From a virus: a stretch of DNA of 20,598 bases. The notes below the pieces were generated by a model, which saw only the letters and a program-made list of their open reading frames with translations, made no database searches and was not told the DNA's origin. The translations under genes were made by a program, and so were the position numbers. The stretch covers positions 1 through 20,598 of the IMG/VR virus record IMGVR_UViG_3300034198_011652. One strand, 5' to 3'. Below, piece after piece: positions 1,950 to 14,972 of the stretch (position 1 is its first letter; every line of letters begins with the position of its first letter).

Positions 1950-4900
1950 ATGGAAAGTCCGCTATCTTTTAATTCGACAGAAATATTTAGAAAAAAACTT
2001 TTAGTGAGGAATTTACCCCCATACAAAGTTTTAAACTCTTTTAGTGCTGATGATGTTATTTCTAATAAAGAAATAGTATTAGTTGACTACGCAATAGTAG
2101 ATTCACAACCATTAGAGAATATAGGTAACGAATTAGAAAAAAAATTATTTATTAAAAATAAATACAATCCCGAAAACACAAATGGCGATTTTGGTGATGT
2201 CGTATCAATTAATTTAGACAAAGGAACTGAAACTAATTTTGGAAATTATGATGTTTCTGATTCTATTGGAAGTAAATTAGAAAAAATTGGAGATTCACAA
2301 GAAACATTACTTTATGTTAAAAACTTATACGGACCTACTGAATATGAAAAAGGTTATGGTGATGTAGTTTTAATCAATAATGATTTAAATAGTAAAAGTA
2401 ATATTGGTAAATATGGGTATCCACTAACTATCAATAGTAAATTAGAACAGATTGGTAATACCCAAGAAATATCTTTAATAGTTAAAAACGTTTATAAACC
2501 ATTAAATACGACAGATTTTGGTGACACGGTTTGGTTTATAAACAATGATCAAAATATTTTAACAACAGGGTCTGGTGAGTATGATATTAATGATACAACC
2601 AATAGTTACTTATACCAAATAGGAAACACGCAGGAAATTAATCATATTGTAAGAAATCTTTATAGACCAATCGGTCTTGGTGATTTTGGTGACACGGTGT
2701 GGTATATCAATAACGATCAAGTAATTTCTTCTGTTGGTCAAGGTGAATATGATATTAACGACACGACAAATAGTTTTTTATATCAAATTGGTAACACACA
2801 AGAAGTTTATCATAAAGTAATTAACAAGTATAAACCACTTACGTTTACCGATTATGGTAGCACAAGATATGATATTAATAATGTATTAACATTAAGTGTT
2901 AACCCACTTTTTGGAAATGATGGTGGTGAATATAATATTTCTGACACAAATAATAGTGAATTAGAATATGTTGGTAACAACCAAGAAATATTTTTATTTA
3001 CTAAAAACAAATATACACCTGAAAATGGTAATGACTACGGGGACACCGTGTGGTTTATTAATAATGATTTAATTTTAGGAACTAACGCTGGAAATTATAA
3101 TTATGGGGATACTATCGGTAGTCAGTTAGAAACTAAAGGAACAGATGAAAGAAATATATTATTTCCTATAAATCAATATGGACCTGAAAACACGCAAAGT
3201 CAAAACGAAGTTAATCCTAACGTTAATTTACAAACAAAACCAAATGAAGGTAACTACGGATACCCTGATAGTATTGGAAGCGATTTAGAAAATCAAGGTA
3301 TTGCTGAAAGACCGACATTAATTGTTGTGAATCAGTATGGGCCGGCAAACCCACTTAATGAACCACCAAACATTAACCAAAATTTACAAACACATTCTAA
3401 CGAAGGTGAATATGGTTTACCCGATTCTGTTGGAAGTGACATGGAGTTATTTGCAACACAAAAAGAAACTGATGCGTATGTTATTAACAAATATGTTACA
3501 GGTGTTGGTAAATATGAAGTTGTTAATTTAGATGATTTACAAACGTTAACTACAGGACTTCCTTATAGTAATACCGATTCGACTTTTGTATTTATACCAT
3601 CAACATATACACCAGTTAGTATTCTTACAAGTGATGATCCTAATGGTTCGGATGGTAATTTATCACAAGACTCGGCACTTGCAAATATTGCAGCAAAACA
3701 ATTACAAAAAGAATTTAAACATAGAGTTGCTCTTGAACTTTTACAACAAACTTTAGGTAAGATTAATTTATTTAATTCTAACGTTGATCCTGATACTGGT
3801 GAGGTATCTGCAAAACCTAATACCGATCCTTTTAATGCGATAGGATTACTTACAGGTAATATTCCAATTATTGCAAGAAATTATAGAATTACAAATCCTG
3901 ATTTATTTTTAGGTCAAGCAATTAATTTTGCCGCTAGGATAGCAGGAACATATTCACCATATTCATATATACCGGGAGAATATTTTGACTATCCTGATAG
4001 AAAAGGTGGTGGAATATTCAATAACCCACTATCACTTCTTGGTCAAGGTGTTGGGGCGATTTTTAGATCATTCCAACCAGCAAACCAATCGGCATCTGAA
4101 TTGTTTGTTGAATACACATCAGTTGCAACAAGAAGTTTATTGTGGACGATTTTAAAATACAACAACTATAGACCTGATTATAAAATTGGAAATAACTTAT
4201 TAGCACCTCCGGGTAATTTTTATATTGGAAATAGAAAATCACAATTAACAAATATCGTATCACCTGAAAATGAATTGGCGGGAGGTAAGTTCGGACAAGT
4301 TAATTTTGGACCTGTTTTATCATATGGTAGAATAGGTAAAGAATATGAAGGTGATCCTATAACAAATTTACCATTTGGATTAAATAGTAGATCCTATATC
4401 GATGGTTATGGAGGTGTTCAAGCAGGGTTTACTTGGATATCAAGTGATAACTATTTAGATCCAGGTCAATTAGTTGGTGTTGGACTTGAAAGAAAATTTG
4501 AAGATCCTAGTGTTTATAGTGTTAGTAACAATGACCCATCATATAATAAAACCAGATCTAATAACCAAACATTTAAAGATGGTTCGATTTTAGATATTAC
4601 ACAAAAACTTGTTGACGCTGGTAACAAATCACAATACCCACTTGAACATGTAGGGAATGCAATAAACCAAGTTTCAAAAGTATTCAACGATGGATACATT
4701 GAATTAACAAAAGGTTCAAGAGTTATTAGATACACGACAAAAAATTCTGAAGGTGCACAATCAATAACACCTGAAGGACTTGAATATTGTAGAATTTTTA
4801 CGAAAGATAGACCATATTCAAATTTTGACGAACTTCAAAAGACTGATGGTAATATTAGAAAATATACTAATTCAGTTTTAGATAATACATTTAATTTAAA

Positions 4901-7900
4901 TATTGCACCAAATAAAGGTGTCGATAAAGTTGAGTCAACGAATATTGTTGATGGTAAGGTTAAAAAATATATGTTTTCACTTGAAAATTTGGCTTGGAGA
5001 ACATCAAATAGACCTGGTTACACATATGAAGATCTACCTGCTTGTGAAAGAGGACCTAATGGAGGAAGAATTATGTGGTTTCCACCATATGATTTAAATT
5101 TTGATGAAAGTGTAAGAACACAATGGGAATCACATACATTTTTAGGTAGACCTGAACCGATATATACATATTCCGATACAAATAGAACAGGAACATTAAG
5201 TTGGAAAATTGTTGTCGATCACCCATCAATAATGAATGTTATTTTAGATAGAGAGTTGGAAAACGCAACTCCAGAATCCACAATAACAAAAGTTTTGGAT
5301 TCATTCTTCGCAGGATGTTTAAAATATGACCTATATACATTGGTGCAAAAATACCCAATGTTTACACCAAGAGATGTATTTGATGTTCAAATAGCTCAAA
5401 CACCGGAAGATGTTAAAAAAGTTGTCGATGATCAACCAAATGAAACTCCGGTAAAATCTGTTACAAATGATGGAACACCTGTAGTAAATAACACATCAAC
5501 AGGATCAACAATACCACCTAATACGGGTTCAACACCATCAACCGAAACAAAACCTGATTTATCAAAATTCCCTGATGTTGGATTTTATTTTCATAATGAT
5601 TTTCCTGATCCAAAAACACATAGAATATATGCGTCATCTGATTTTGAAAGTTGGTTTACTAAATATAAAAACCTTAAACCTGAATATTTTACAGGTGGTA
5701 ACGATGGTACTAGAAACTTTGGGGGTGCTGTTGGTAATAACATAATAAAATATGGTGATAACACCTATACTGACAGAACAAATGAAGTTTTATCATTATC
5801 TAATGATGACCAAGTTAAATATTTAGCAACTTATATTGATTGGAGAAAAGATGAGGTTGACAAATTTTTTACCTTTATTGAATCTGAATTTGATGAAGCT
5901 AAAAAATTCATGGTTGAGGCTGGTCAAATTTTGGACGGAGGTGACACCATCGACATTCAATTAATTGGAGGGGCATCATCTGTTAATGATAGTAATTACA
6001 ATGTGGATCTTTCTAAAAGAAGAATAGATGCTGTAATGCAATGGATGTTTAAATTAAAAACACCAAAAGGAACTACGTTTGAACAATATTATAAAGATAA
6101 AAAATTCAATATTGAAATGACCCCTAGTGGGGAAGTCGGAGCACCTTTAGAAGAAAAATATAAATATATTAATTGTTCTAAAGACTTTTTAAATATAAGT
6201 AATGAAGGTGTTACATCCATAAATGCTATGGCATGTAGAAGAACTAAACTTATTTTCAAAAAATCATCATACACACCACCAAAAGACTCAAACACTAATA
6301 ATACCACACAACAACCACAACAACAACAAACTGAATTACCATCATCGGTAATTAACCCAACAGGAGGTGAAGATGAAACACCTACTAATTTGAATAAACC
6401 AAAAGAAGAACTTAAATCTACACCGGCAACAAAATATCAAGATGTTAAGGTAAGACAAGATTTAACAAAAAGACTTGCAAGAAAACTTTTAACGGAGTGC
6501 AATTACTTTGAAATTATTAGACAAGAAAATCCAATGATATATGATGGATTAAAAAGTAAGTTAAAACATTTCCAACCGGTATTCCACTCTTTAACACCTG
6601 AAGGATTAAATTCAAGATTAACGTTCCTACAACAATGTATGAGACCTGGGGATACAATACCTACCGCATCACAAGGTGCGAATGGTGGTACGACATTATT
6701 ATACAACGATGTTACAAATAGTGCATTTGGAGCACCACCGGTATGTGTATTAAGAATCGGGGACTTTTTCCATACAAAAATAGTAATAGATAGTTTGACT
6801 TTAAAATATGATGAGGGAAGATTCGATCTAAATCCTGAAGGGATTGGGGTTCAACCAATGATTGCAAATGTTACTTTAGGATTTTCTTTCATTGGAGGTC
6901 ATGGACTTGCTCAACCTATTGCTAAATTACAAAACGCACTTTCATTTAATTATTATGCTAATACTGAAATGTATGATGAAAGAGCTGAAGTAACAGAAGA
7001 CATTTCAACAATATATGATGCTCAAACGCTGGATGATATAAAAAATTTATATGGTATTGTTTCACCAGCCGAAAGACCACAAACAAACGATGGTGGGGTA
7101 ACCATCGGAACAATAATGTCAACTACATTCCCAACACCTGATAGCACACAAGTTAACAAAGCGGGAACAATAAAATACCGATACAATATGAAAAACTTGG
7201 TGAACAAGGTAAAAGATTATTCAAACACGGTGTATAATAAATTATATGAATGTAATAAAACATTATTATTAGGTGGGTTATTAATTTTAACAAAAGATAG
7301 AAACTTTAAAGAAGGGTATTTTGACAACTTAACAGGTGATACATCACATCTTACTAATATTTTTGGTAGAGTAGATGGTATACAACAAAAAATACAAGAC
7401 ACTATTAATGGGGCGTTAGAAGATGTCGATAATGGTTATTGTCCTTTAATTTCTGATGTTGAATCTAAAAACTTTAAAAATTCAGAAATTAGAAAAATAA
7501 AAAATAGAATAAAAGAATTAATAAATGAAAAACAAGGAGAAATACTTGGGACTTTAGAAAATTATAATAATGATATTACAAAAATTGAATTAGAATTAAT
7601 TTCATTTATCGATCAATTAAATTATGTTTGTTCAGGAGTTGATGGATATATTAATACACAAGGAACCGTTTTTGCGTATACTTTAACAGGAAGAACATCA
7701 GGGGTTGATCCATCAAGCACTGCGACTGACACATTCTCAGAATTAAAAACTGACTATTACCAAGTTTCTACGGACTTAAATACTTTCATTAGTCAACTAA
7801 TAAGTAATGATATTATTGTTGAAAAAACTGATGAAGTCTACCAAAGTGATTTTGTTTTTAATAGTTTTATTGATGAACCTTCACGCATATCTGCTCCCGA

Positions 7901-11600: not shown

Positions 11601-14600
11601 AACGCACTAATCAACGATGTTAATAATTTAAAAACTAATAACGACGGATCATTTGCGACGTTAGGGTATTTGTTTGTTAATTCACTACCATTACTTAATA
11701 CTACTGATAGTTTTAAAGACTTAAACCAAAGTATTGCTGCAAGTTTTAAAAAGTATTCATCAATACATCAAGTGCCATATGCTTGGGTTTTAAAATATGG
11801 TTCTATTTGGTATCGATATAAAAAATATATTAACGATGGGGTTGATATACTAACAAATGTTTGGAAAGACTTTGACTATAAAAACGCGTATGATCCAATC
11901 AACGGGTTAGTTAGTGCTCAATATGAAATAAAGACTGCAACATCAACAATACCATTTGTTTTAAAAACAGGAACGACTTTTGCGACAGGAACATATCTAA
12001 ATATGAATGTAGGGTTCTATCCAAAAGTTATTGATTCTGTTTATTATTATTTAACAAAAAACGATTTATTTACAGGATATACAAAAACTGATTTTGAAAA
12101 TTATTACAATGACGGATTAAGAGTTTGGTCAAACACTAATGCTAGGGTATTATTAAATTATAATTTTGATACAACTAATCCTAATACGTCTTTAAATAAA
12201 AATAGTTATTATCAGTTTAAATATGTTAACAATAACACACAAAACATTACTAACAATAACATTATATTATTCCCATCAACAGGAGGGATTCAAATAGATC
12301 AATCATACTTTGAATGTATAAACGATGATGGTAAACAAAAAATACCTTATGTTGATAATGTGTCAGCATTTAATGGAACATGTAGACCATTATGGGGGAG
12401 TTCAAACTTCGGATATTTTGATAACACATTAATTACTAAGCCATCACCTACTGAACTTATTTTAAATTTAAATGAAAATAAATCAATTGAAGATATATTT
12501 GCGTTATTTGACCCACAACTTTTAGATGAGTTTGAAAATATATTTTTAAATTTCTGTAAATACAATCCTAAAGCAGAAGAGTTAATTCTTAAAAAAGAAG
12601 TTACCGATCCGACATATAATAACCCTAATAAAGTTTCAAGTTTAAAATATAAAAGTTTATTTAACCAACTTAAAAATTTATTTGTAATTGATAAAACTGG
12701 TTTGGTGTTTACAAATACTGAATCACAAGATGGGTTAATGTTAGGTAAAAAACAAATAGAAACGTTTACATCATCATTAAATGATTTTTTAAATTTTGAT
12801 TGTATTATAAAAATCGGTAACCCTGGAAACTTTGACAGGTTATTGTTTAACTCATTTTCGACTAACACAGATTTTGTACCGGAATTTGATAAATTAACTT
12901 TTGACCCTTATGTTAGAGGTTCACTTCCTGGTGATTACATTGGAATATCTTTTGCAACAAGTATTACACAATACCCTGAAGAATGGAAAACATTGCAAAC
13001 CTATGTAGGGTTTTCAACTTTAGATTCTTTAAAATATGAAGGATTTAATTCTTATATTACAGATTTCTTTATTGATAACAATATAGCATTCACATCGGAT
13101 AATATAATAAAAACATACCCACTTATTAAAATTTATGCGACCCAAAAATTAAATGACCAAACATTAAATAAAACTAAGTTTGAAACTTTAATTAATGATT
13201 ACCTTACCGATAGAAAAGATTTACAAACCTCAGTATTGAATGAAACTTTTAGATATTTAAATGTAAATTTAAAAAACATACAAGTTACTACCAATACAAC
13301 ACCAGCGGCCGTTAGTGGTGATATTGTAAAATTAAGCACATATAATACATTAAAGGCATATAACGATAAATGGATTGCAGGATCTGATTTTGTAAATAAT
13401 ACAATTTTTGAGGACTTTTTATTTATGGATAGGGCTAATAGTGATATTGGAAATGACTTTGTTTTAGATATTGAAAAAGTAACTAAGTTATTAGACATCA
13501 ATATAAACCCAACAATTAATATGATGCAAATTGTCAGTAAAATTTTAACTGATAATTATTTCACATTTTTTGCAATGCCTGCTTATGTTAATTTTTATGG
13601 TCTACAAAAATCACAAACAAATGCGATACCTAAAGATTTAGACTTACCTAACTCTTTATTTGGGACACACCTACAAGTAGATTATTTGGATTCGTTACCT
13701 AAATTTTTATGTCTATACGTTGGTAATACTTCTGAATACCCAAAACCTAAAGAAAATTCTTTTATAAGATTTGGTGATGATAGTTTTGATTTAAGAGTTC
13801 CTGATAACCCATTATCTATTTCAGAAAATACTGATCGCGATCTTTCAAAATCAAATAAAGTGGTAGGATTTGCGGTTGATTTTGGTATACAAAATCAAAA
13901 TATGTTTAAAGATTTAAATTTAAATATGTCTGAAATGCAAAATACATCAGAATCTTTTAAAGTGATGTCTGATTTAGGATCATCGTCGTCAGGGGATAAA
14001 GTTGCACAGCAATCAGTTTCTTTATATAGTGTTTATAAATCAAGATCATATTCTTGTGAAGTAACATCTATGGGTAATACGATGATACAACCTACAATGT
14101 ATTTTACACTAAGACATGTGCCTATGTTTTATGGACCTTATTGGATTTATAAAGTTAATCATTCGGTTAATAAAACATCATTTACTACAAAATTTACAGG
14201 AAGCAGAATACCAAAATATTCATTACCAAAAGTTGATAATTTACTTTCTTTTGTAAATAAGAAAATTAATTCATCATATAAGGAAAAAATTAAAAAAGAA
14301 AAAACTCAAACACAAGTAGTAAAAGAAATATTATTAAATATTGATTCAAACGTAGGAACATTAAAATCACCACAGGAAACTTGTTTACAATTAACAAAAT
14401 ATCAAGATAAAGAATTTGTCGATGCTTTTGGAACTAAAAAAACTTTATCAGAATTAATTCAAGTGATAAAATCAAAAACTACTGACGTTGGATTAAGAAC
14501 ATTACTCACAGGAATGATTATTTCTGCACCATCAAATAGTTATGACGTAACATCGAAAGTAATTAATGCGGTAAATAATAATTTTTTCACTATTACAACA

Positions 14601-14972
14601 AATACAACATGGAATGGTAATTTGGAAAGTTATATAAATAAACAATGTTGTGTTAATATATTACAAAAAATAGCAACATTAGTAAGTTTTGATAATGTTG
14701 AAGATTCTATTAATTTTATTATTTCATATTATACCCCACAAATCCCAGTATTAAATAATTTATTATCATTAAATAACGGGGATAATGAAACTAAATATAG
14801 TAATGCTTGTTCGCAACTTTATGAAACAACATGGTATACTTTAGATGCCATTAGTAATGGGTGGTCAGCACAACAAATAAAACAAAATGTTACAAATAAT
14901 TACCAAAATCATTATTCTAATCACGATGAATTAATTGAAATATTTAGATTGGCTTATAATGAAGTTAAGTAA
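8643..14972 (+). CDS. Giant baseplate hub-like protein (gp27/gpD-type signatures)
   Basis: 2109 residues; ATG at 8643 lies 11 bases inside the preceding gene. Residues 145-262 (GINSINVDITGVGIPEV, then LYLTLKGYYG-like strands, KYRLSLKSFNARFEP, then YAITLKLIGKF) form a beta-rich block like the N-terminal barrels of hub proteins. Residues about 1738-1860 look like the C-terminal hub domain of gp27/gpD/XkdQ proteins: VDFGIQNQNMF, then SYSCEVTSMGNTMIQP, then VPMFYGPYWIYKVNHSV, then FTTKFTGSRIP, following the pattern mGN-x-x-I-x-P ... Y-x-I-x-x-V-x-H. Between them lie ~1470 Asn/Tyr/Phe-rich residues I cannot assign, and after them a ~240-residue extension. T4 gp27 is about 390 residues, so this is several times larger and probably combines hub with other baseplate functions. 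No lysozyme motif is visible. It follows a gp53-like gene, as T4 gene 5 follows gene 53. Confidence 0.58.
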   Translation: MAGKISKNKGIVVETEYNNIVVVNPNQVYDENGIATERLVDHEDLVFYANLETFIIPRTKLAIGESQDSPVMNSTIASVFGGDDDLKINFLKPKGKKYFDTSWSDQLTGDNSRDQQGINQKKEKVVNQNGVASFKNSVIGVEDTQLLGINSINVDITGVGIPEVTMELTDIQGRALFEQGENSLYSAFFNFPYPLFYLTLKGYYGKAIKYRLSLKSFNARFEPKSGSYAITLKLIGKFTAILFDTPLSYAITAPKMFNTEITITDTANNQVKSINTYKGRQKLDEVYEIYKNKGLIDKNFPHLSIEDFINRTQNYVQILNEDLKNKADFTILNDVWDFRQNLDDLEKYVYSDSLTKYLDTSSFYVNDGLIYYPFKKEIDTQKQEDYKSNIDKLIINYVSLLKLNATFGDGGKRQIPVDIKNITNILKPLDIDQWLENDKNVLDTYYYRVGKQLDLNNPNDRILFDKFKVDETINKLRFTFLDNETEEIKNDYSSFFVFGDKRIADGSYQKNSFLDKIDVAKKKLTTNEEEIEGDIAKILADRQLKNPNDGGLGFKPTIRNVFAIIFSGVDAFLRLMEDTHQSAWDVRENPSRLLSVIPPEKSFSPDALKSIQKGNGQLDKDNVIYPWPLYFTKEKQTDGRELYTIQYPGDPKVINQTKGFDYSIWPEVGFVEGYLKGATETAKPVQPSVYNNPSDYNKYVSANAIEFPYQILPYQDLAIVPFLYELFERTYVISNYLNFDKDNILKYQIDKFYGDAEASNISNNASNNIELNQILKNYKFTYSTFINTLKKISNDGEGVSWQTYIRSLFKTEYLSNEIPSSNEVLSIDTFTNTNTNTQELPLSTNLESYLKSTDSSKKLFTDLYPFTDETWLNANTQFNTFDTFNNTINVFTFSDDKKTITRLNKNANSEDVSLISNKEVFNNGGQSYVSYNNIPINEKNALTLYYQDRTDKKFYVTEKKLVYNSSYSGNVGQLQTTSLINTPYFINALINDVNNLKTNNDGSFATLGYLFVNSLPLLNTTDSFKDLNQSIAASFKKYSSIHQVPYAWVLKYGSIWYRYKKYINDGVDILTNVWKDFDYKNAYDPINGLVSAQYEIKTATSTIPFVLKTGTTFATGTYLNMNVGFYPKVIDSVYYYLTKNDLFTGYTKTDFENYYNDGLRVWSNTNARVLLNYNFDTTNPNTSLNKNSYYQFKYVNNNTQNITNNNIILFPSTGGIQIDQSYFECINDDGKQKIPYVDNVSAFNGTCRPLWGSSNFGYFDNTLITKPSPTELILNLNENKSIEDIFALFDPQLLDEFENIFLNFCKYNPKAEELILKKEVTDPTYNNPNKVSSLKYKSLFNQLKNLFVIDKTGLVFTNTESQDGLMLGKKQIETFTSSLNDFLNFDCIIKIGNPGNFDRLLFNSFSTNTDFVPEFDKLTFDPYVRGSLPGDYIGISFATSITQYPEEWKTLQTYVGFSTLDSLKYEGFNSYITDFFIDNNIAFTSDNIIKTYPLIKIYATQKLNDQTLNKTKFETLINDYLTDRKDLQTSVLNETFRYLNVNLKNIQVTTNTTPAAVSGDIVKLSTYNTLKAYNDKWIAGSDFVNNTIFEDFLFMDRANSDIGNDFVLDIEKVTKLLDININPTINMMQIVSKILTDNYFTFFAMPAYVNFYGLQKSQTNAIPKDLDLPNSLFGTHLQVDYLDSLPKFLCLYVGNTSEYPKPKENSFIRFGDDSFDLRVPDNPLSISENTDRDLSKSNKVVGFAVDFGIQNQNMFKDLNLNMSEMQNTSESFKVMSDLGSSSSGDKVAQQSVSLYSVYKSRSYSCEVTSMGNTMIQPTMYFTLRHVPMFYGPYWIYKVNHSVNKTSFTTKFTGSRIPKYSLPKVDNLLSFVNKKINSSYKEKIKKEKTQTQVVKEILLNIDSNVGTLKSPQETCLQLTKYQDKEFVDAFGTKKTLSELIQVIKSKTTDVGLRTLLTGMIISAPSNSYDVTSKVINAVNNNFFTITTNTTWNGNLESYINKQCCVNILQKIATLVSFDNVEDSINFIISYYTPQIPVLNNLLSLNNGDNETKYSNACSQLYETTWYTLDAISNGWSAQQIKQNVTNNYQNHYSNHDELIEIFRLAYNEVK

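Follow-up and report, generated by a model that had tools for sequence, protein, structure and literature searches.

An OmpA-fold domain related to that of PorE is embedded in a tube-initiator-type baseplate protein of a phage (P0001), and our analysis supports its placement between the two halves of the tube-initiator barrel of a contractile tail. P0001 is encoded in a virus record of 20,598 bases (IMGVR_UViG_3300034198_011652), which was analysed over its whole length and is called the window below. We give a probability of roughly one half to the reading that copies of this PorE-type domain form a collar at the tail-tube tip that docks to murein. The coordinates of the features are collected in Table 1.

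Table 1. Features of the window, with positions counted from its first base (~, approximate residue numbers).
Feature	Positions	Strand	Basis or remark
P0001, tube-initiator-type baseplate protein with OmpA domain, 2127 aa	1950..8333	+	
First half of tube-initiator barrel and start of linker, residues 936-1140	4755..5369	+	
Pro/Thr/Asn/Gln-rich linker before the domain, residues ~1150-1199	5397..5546	+	sequence
OmpA/PorE-like domain, residues ~1200-1446	5547..6287	+	family profile, structure model, fold matches
F1214-H1215, end of strand 1, putatively matching PorE Phe541-Asp542	5589..5594	+	motif matching
Pocket motif, residues 1334-1362: S1343 (Asp position), Y1350, N1351, L1354, R1358	5949..6035	+	
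Loop with invariant C1409 and C1429-R1430 (C...AMACRR)	about 6174..6239	+	
Pro/Thr/Asn/Gln-rich linker after the domain, residues ~1447-1500	6288..6450	+	sequence
Second half of tube-initiator barrel, residues 1510-1700	6477..7049	+	
gp53/LysM-like baseplate wedge protein, 106 aa	8333..8653	+	phrog_7145, E 0.005 (homologues match more strongly)
P0002, hub-like protein, 2109 aa	8643..14972	+	L082 and L083 homologues end in endolysin-type domains

The plus strand carries the end of a tape-measure-like gene, followed by the genes for P0001, the small gp53/LysM-like wedge protein and P0002. Replication genes lie 3' of P0002 (gp32-like, UvsX-like, exonuclease-like and helicase-like; the last two identities come from reading the sequence only). 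Obvious Shine-Dalgarno sequences were not seen for the genes of the window. P0001 had no useful match when the window proteins were searched against PHROGs, tblastn with the whole protein matched no isolate phage, and the OmpA domain alone as query gave no isolate match worth pursuing. In IMG/VR, P0001 has at least 596 relatives; the matches listed comprise 79 loci, and 64 distinct ones among these span the OmpA site. Distant relatives come from one MAG each of Bacteroidales, Paludibacteraceae and Mycoplasmatota and from a Prochlorococcus single-cell contig. The host of the window phage is likely a member of the Bacteroidota.

Two of the distant loci are referred to repeatedly. L083 (CACYXI010000001.1, 286,648 bases) is a contig of a Bacteroidales MAG with a related tail module, and its hub ends in an M15-type peptidase; it is probably a large phage or a provirus that was binned together with its host. 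L082 (QCKH01000012.1, 51,360 bases) is a contig from a single-cell genome of Prochlorococcus. Its tail module is of the same kind and includes an OmpA-like stretch as well as a hub of the endolysin type. This contig represents either a virus of the host or a co-sorted virus.

The N-terminal part of P0001 (residues ~70-490, window 2157-3400) is a tandem repeat of ~55-60 aa (N.Y.P ... DFGDTVWFINND). There are eight N-x-Y-x-P units in the P0001 of the window and 1 to 9 in its relatives, so that the copy number at the N-terminus of this tube initiator changes readily.

An earlier note on this DNA had recognized an OmpA-like module in P0001 by its C-terminal signature, and this is borne out. The residue numbers given there are correct (G-x-A-S-S...YN..LS..R...V at 1340-1362, with R1358 as the Arg and linkers at ~1150-1200 and ~1440-1500). 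The domain extends beyond that motif, and an additional segment follows strand 1. When P0001 alone is compared to the Pfam OmpA family (PF00691), it scores 16.5 bits (E 0.011), and the excised domain scores 19.8 bits (E 0.0011). Both values are below the gathering cut-off (27.2 bits), so that a single-sequence test alone would leave the OmpA assignment doubtful. A phmmer search of the region against PDB gave no match. Among 60 relatives, 34 match Pfam OmpA at E<=0.01 (best 1.7e-6). The tube proteins of L083 (= L101) and L081 (= L093) score 26.8 and 23.1 bits, which is just under the cut-off, and the OmpA-like stretches in L082 and L084 were assigned by motif recognition only, without a Pfam match.

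A profile of the 60 relatives retrieves OmpA, Pal, OprF, PorE and YfiB chains from PDB (best E 7.1e-8); of the 38 chains matched, one, at E 0.075, is evidently not of the OmpA type. The AlphaFold2 model of the domain has a pLDDT of 95.5 and a pTM of 0.92. Structure prediction and fold search, which the earlier note had proposed, gave an OmpA/Pal/PorE fold: PorE, Pal and OmpA lead the Foldseek matches, with PorE on top (best E 1.3e-3), and the structural neighbours are Pal, OmpA, PorE, TagL and MotB. Upon VIA alignment, 115 of 119 residues could be aligned to Pal (Z 9.9, the highest value). Among the matches listed, every one of the 64 distinct relatives covering the site contains the domain, and the mean column identity is 25%. 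Residues ~1200-1446 are thus confirmed as a domain of the OmpA/Pal/MotB fold, with the kinship established by profile and structure.

The setting of this domain in a tube initiator, also proposed earlier, is supported by several observations. The position of the P0001 gene, after the tape measure and before the gp53-like and hub genes, fits that of a tube initiator. In 64/64 relatives that show both genes, P0001 and P0002 are separated by a gap that would fit one small gene. In a low-confidence model of residues 560-1740 (pLDDT 57), the region 1001-1651 aligns to residues 3-158 of Pvc7 (VIA, Z 10.4, 145 residues, rmsd 3.9). The same model also aligns to Afp7 and other baseplate tube proteins, while its OmpA part (640-880 of the model) separately matches OmpA chains. 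Sequence profiles of the barrel halves gave only chance matches in PDB and no solved tube chain.

Both barrel halves align to immuto26A_236, a protein from Flavobacterium phage vB_FspM_immuto. The lead was a sub-threshold match of the first half only (E 0.9), which was later backed by profile comparison and gene order. With hhalign, the profile of the first half (936-1140) matches immuto26A_236 residues 541-605 (E 2.5e-5) and that of the second half (1510-1700) matches residues 623-690 (E 0.003). A stretch of 17 residues separates the two aligned segments in immuto26A_236, which has no OmpA insert. Because the halves flank the OmpA domain in P0001 and adjoin each other in immuto26A_236, the domain is best described as an insertion within the tube-initiator barrel. 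A sheath gene was found in 13 and a gp25 gene in 9 of the 14 long relatives, which points to contractile tails.

When PorE binds a murein fragment, diaminopimelate (DAP) is held by the side chains of Arg591, Asn584 and Asp576, while Phe541, Tyr583 and Ile587 provide hydrophobic contacts (PMC7192894). The corresponding residues of TagL are Asp, Asn, Leu and Arg (PMC8253398). D271 of AbOmpA is critical for DAP binding (PMC6572160). In Tp0624, where this Asp is lost to Ala and the Asn is also changed, DAP binding was not measurable (PMC5104382).

In the phage domains, Asn, Leu and Arg of the canonical motif TD(x)7NxxLSxxRA are present. R1358, for which the earlier note had proposed to check a location in the diaminopimelate pocket, aligns with the Arg that contacts the diaminopimelate carboxylate (AbOmpA R286, TagL R501, PorE R591) and is invariant in 64/64 relatives. 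According to the alignment of the relatives, N1351 and L1354 are each kept in 62/64, Y1350 in 54/64 and F1214 (matched by motif) in 60/64. The exception is S1343, which occupies the position of the DAP-amine Asp (AbOmpA D271, PorE D576). This position is S in 50, N in 11, D in 2 and Y in 1 of the 64 relatives, and the alignment is poor there in the D and Y rows. Asp is found at this position in 59/64 sampled cellular Bacteroidota domains versus Ser/Asn in 61/64 phage relatives. Five of the six stem-peptide contact positions are thus conserved far above the domain mean of 25%, and the sixth, acidic in PorE, is taken by a neutral residue that can form hydrogen bonds. With five positions kept and the Asp consistently changed, the phage pocket is neither canonical nor decayed, and canonical DAP binding is not to be assumed. 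The suggestion of a murein anchor or sensor is supported only in part: the Phe/Tyr/Asn/Ile-Leu/Arg positions argue for it and the replaced Asp argues against it.

C1409 and C1429 are invariant in all 64 phage domains, whereas the PorE-like relatives lack them. As the corresponding part of the fold contains a disulphide in E. coli OmpA (PMC7192894), the two phage cysteines may possibly form one in the virion.

The OmpA-fold domain might instead be structural: as a spacer or docking piece of the baseplate, it would contact the wedge or the sheath-initiator proteins rather than murein. The loss of the canonical Asp throughout fits this explanation, as does the invariant Cys pair, which suggests a reshaped loop. 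Also, the product of the adjoining gene is gp53/LysM-like, an example of a baseplate component with a wall-binding-type fold; in gp53, the LysM-type fold is already used as a structural part of baseplates. However, the F/Y/N/L/R stem-peptide positions are kept in 54-64 of 64 relatives while most of the domain varies, and the linkers on either side look flexible. We regard a purely structural role as the main competing explanation, possible although on the unlikely side.

When the phage profile was searched against 61 Bacteroidota genomes, there were four full-length matches (E 1e-21 to 1e-25), the next one being partial (2.5e-10). The four proteins so matched are all cellular and contain TPR and PD40 propeller repeats, which is the architecture of PorE, and two of them are encoded adjacent to PorP/SprF genes of the type IX secretion system. 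They have in common with the phage domains a YF.ND.P start, a GYASP/GFASP motif with Ser and the domain end. In a phylogenetic tree, the PorE-like domains are sister to the main phage group at modest support (83/81); four more distant phage-type domains branch outside, the distant phage rows being long-branched. This type of domain occurs in 6/296 sampled Bacteroidota genomes. A search with the PorE-like profile, via back-translated patterns, detected no further viral relatives. As judged by sequence, the closest cellular kin found are the PorE-like domains of some Bacteroidota. In L097, L099 and L140, which are cellular OmpA-type domains of Bacteroidota, the motif reads GYASPEG or GYASAEG, with Ser in place of the DAP Asp; they represent a Ser-type OmpA subclass outside the PorE-like group.

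These relatives bear on another explanation, namely that the pocket has an altered ligand. Instead of free meso-DAP, the pocket might recognise, for example, stem peptides that are amidated or cross-linked, or an envelope protein of the host located close to the type IX secretion apparatus; the PorE-like cellular domains with the same Ser may do likewise. The Ser form (GYASP) is one that the phage domains share with the PorE-like proteins, two of the four being encoded beside PorP/SprF, and the Asp is replaced consistently by Ser or Asn rather than at random, as if selected. This neighbourhood evidence comes, however, from few genomes, given the rarity of the domain type in the sample. We know of no ligand for any Ser-type OmpA domain. 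We consider such a change of ligand rather improbable.

The earlier note had further suggested that the OmpA domain might stand in for a tail lysozyme of the gp5 type, and this part is disfavoured. Indeed, a recognised murein hydrolase was not detected in the hub of the window, P0002 (Pfam, PHROGs and PDB profile search), and the Phage_lysozyme and Glucosaminidase families are absent from the window and 14 long relatives. But the L083 hub, a homologue of P0002 (E 2e-30), extends into the M15-type peptidase; an endolysin match was obtained for the L082 hub; and the protein at the hub position in phage immuto contains a VanY carboxypeptidase. This immuto protein shows no direct BLAST similarity to P0002 and was paired with it through gene order alone. 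L083 and L082 each combine an OmpA-like stretch (Pfam 26.8 bits in L083, motif only in L082) with a hub C-terminus of the endolysin type. This coexistence of a murein hydrolase with an OmpA-like domain in distant relatives argues against lysozyme replacement. In addition, the window is a 20.6-kb fragment, and a lysin may be encoded elsewhere. To our knowledge, OmpA domains do not hydrolyse murein. Replacement of the tail lysozyme is therefore considered highly improbable.

The C-terminus of P0002 (window 14358-14969) is a fast-evolving module of ~204 aa with an NNN-F motif. A glucosaminidase lead came from the motif NNNLF.I, with matches in 3/32 relatives (best E 0.0026). We do not assign the module as a glucosaminidase-like lysin, as the PDB profile search was empty and PF01832 was absent from 15 records. 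A possible catalytic position is Glu in 13/47 relatives and Ala in the window. The module is possibly a decayed lysozyme- or glucosaminidase-like domain.

We return to murein docking, the reading which we prefer. The OmpA domain, inserted between the initiator barrel halves, would be carried on flexible Pro/Thr/Asn/Gln linkers. Several copies would form a collar around the tube tip (six, should the ring be hexameric like those of related machines). Contraction of the sheath would drive the tube through the outer membrane, and the OmpA domains would reach the periplasm. There, the Arg/Asn/Leu/Tyr/Phe pocket may grip the peptide stems of murein, with Ser/Asn altering rather than abolishing the binding. 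The tube tip would be held at the wall while the hub opens it. The OmpA fold and family profile, the insertion site, the presence in 64/64 relatives, the conserved pocket, the PorE-like kin and the sheath and gp25 genes argue for murein docking. Arguments against it are the loss of the DAP-amine Asp, the precedents of Tp0624 and AbOmpA D271, the use of a LysM-type fold in gp53 and the low pLDDT (57) of the barrel model. It is tempting to speculate, as a tentative extension that we hold at somewhat below even odds, that one widespread and barely cultured lineage of contractile Bacteroidota phages shares a PorE-type wall anchor with the type IX machinery of its hosts and presents it as a tube-tip collar, a murein clamp with a new ligand preference.

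Tube initiators and murein-binding domains of the OmpA type are both familiar, but the open-access literature searched contained no case of such a domain inserted into an initiator and having a PorE-like Ser/Asn pocket. Little is known, except in a few model phages, about how phage tubes pass through murein and are held there. The contractile-tailed phages that carry the domain are very common and almost uncultured, and a wall-anchor-type domain fixed in the tube initiator of several hundred environmental phage contigs (at least 596 relatives) would be a distinct and testable solution. The Ser/Asn pocket, common to phage and PorE-like proteins, points to an OmpA subclass with an apparently unexamined ligand.

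Among known systems, the OmpA_C-like domain of PorE from the type IX secretion system of Porphyromonas gingivalis (6TOP) is the top Foldseek match. The PorE-like proteins (TPR, PD40 and OmpA) have the whole ~220-aa domain in common with the phage, including the S..A...R end. From the PorE architecture (TPR, beta-propeller and OmpA), P0001 has only the OmpA part, which is inserted in a phage tube protein. PorE itself has the DAP-binding Asp576, whereas the phage and PorE-like Ser-type domains lack it. TagL, OmpA, Pal and MotB (PF00691) share the fold and the Asn, Leu and Arg of the DAP site with the phage domain. They are, however, envelope proteins with Asp in the DAP site, in contrast to Ser/Asn in a tail protein. 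Like the phage domain, domain D3 of Tp0624 from Treponema has an OmpA fold in which the Arg is retained but not the DAP Asp (PMC5104382). It differs by Asp to Ala and Asn to Glu/Gln changes, while the phage has Ser/Asn at the Asp position and keeps the Asn, and the settings are unrelated. R9ZWT8 from Cellulophaga phage phi17:2, annotated as a phage OmpA-domain protein, has an OmpA-type fold like that in P0001 (weak match, E 0.27), but it is a separate protein of 327 aa and apparently not part of a tube initiator. Phage immuto (Immutovirus) has the same gene order as the window (tape measure, immuto26A_236, gp53-like, hub); it lacks the OmpA domain in immuto26A_236, and it has the VanY carboxypeptidase in its hub. 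In the low-confidence model, the phage barrel halves align as one domain to each of Pvc7 (6j0n_b), Afp7 (6rao_G) and the T4 baseplate chain 5iv5_BE (probably gp48-like, from its chain length). P0001 differs from these initiators in that its barrel is split by the OmpA domain and is preceded by long N-terminal repeats.
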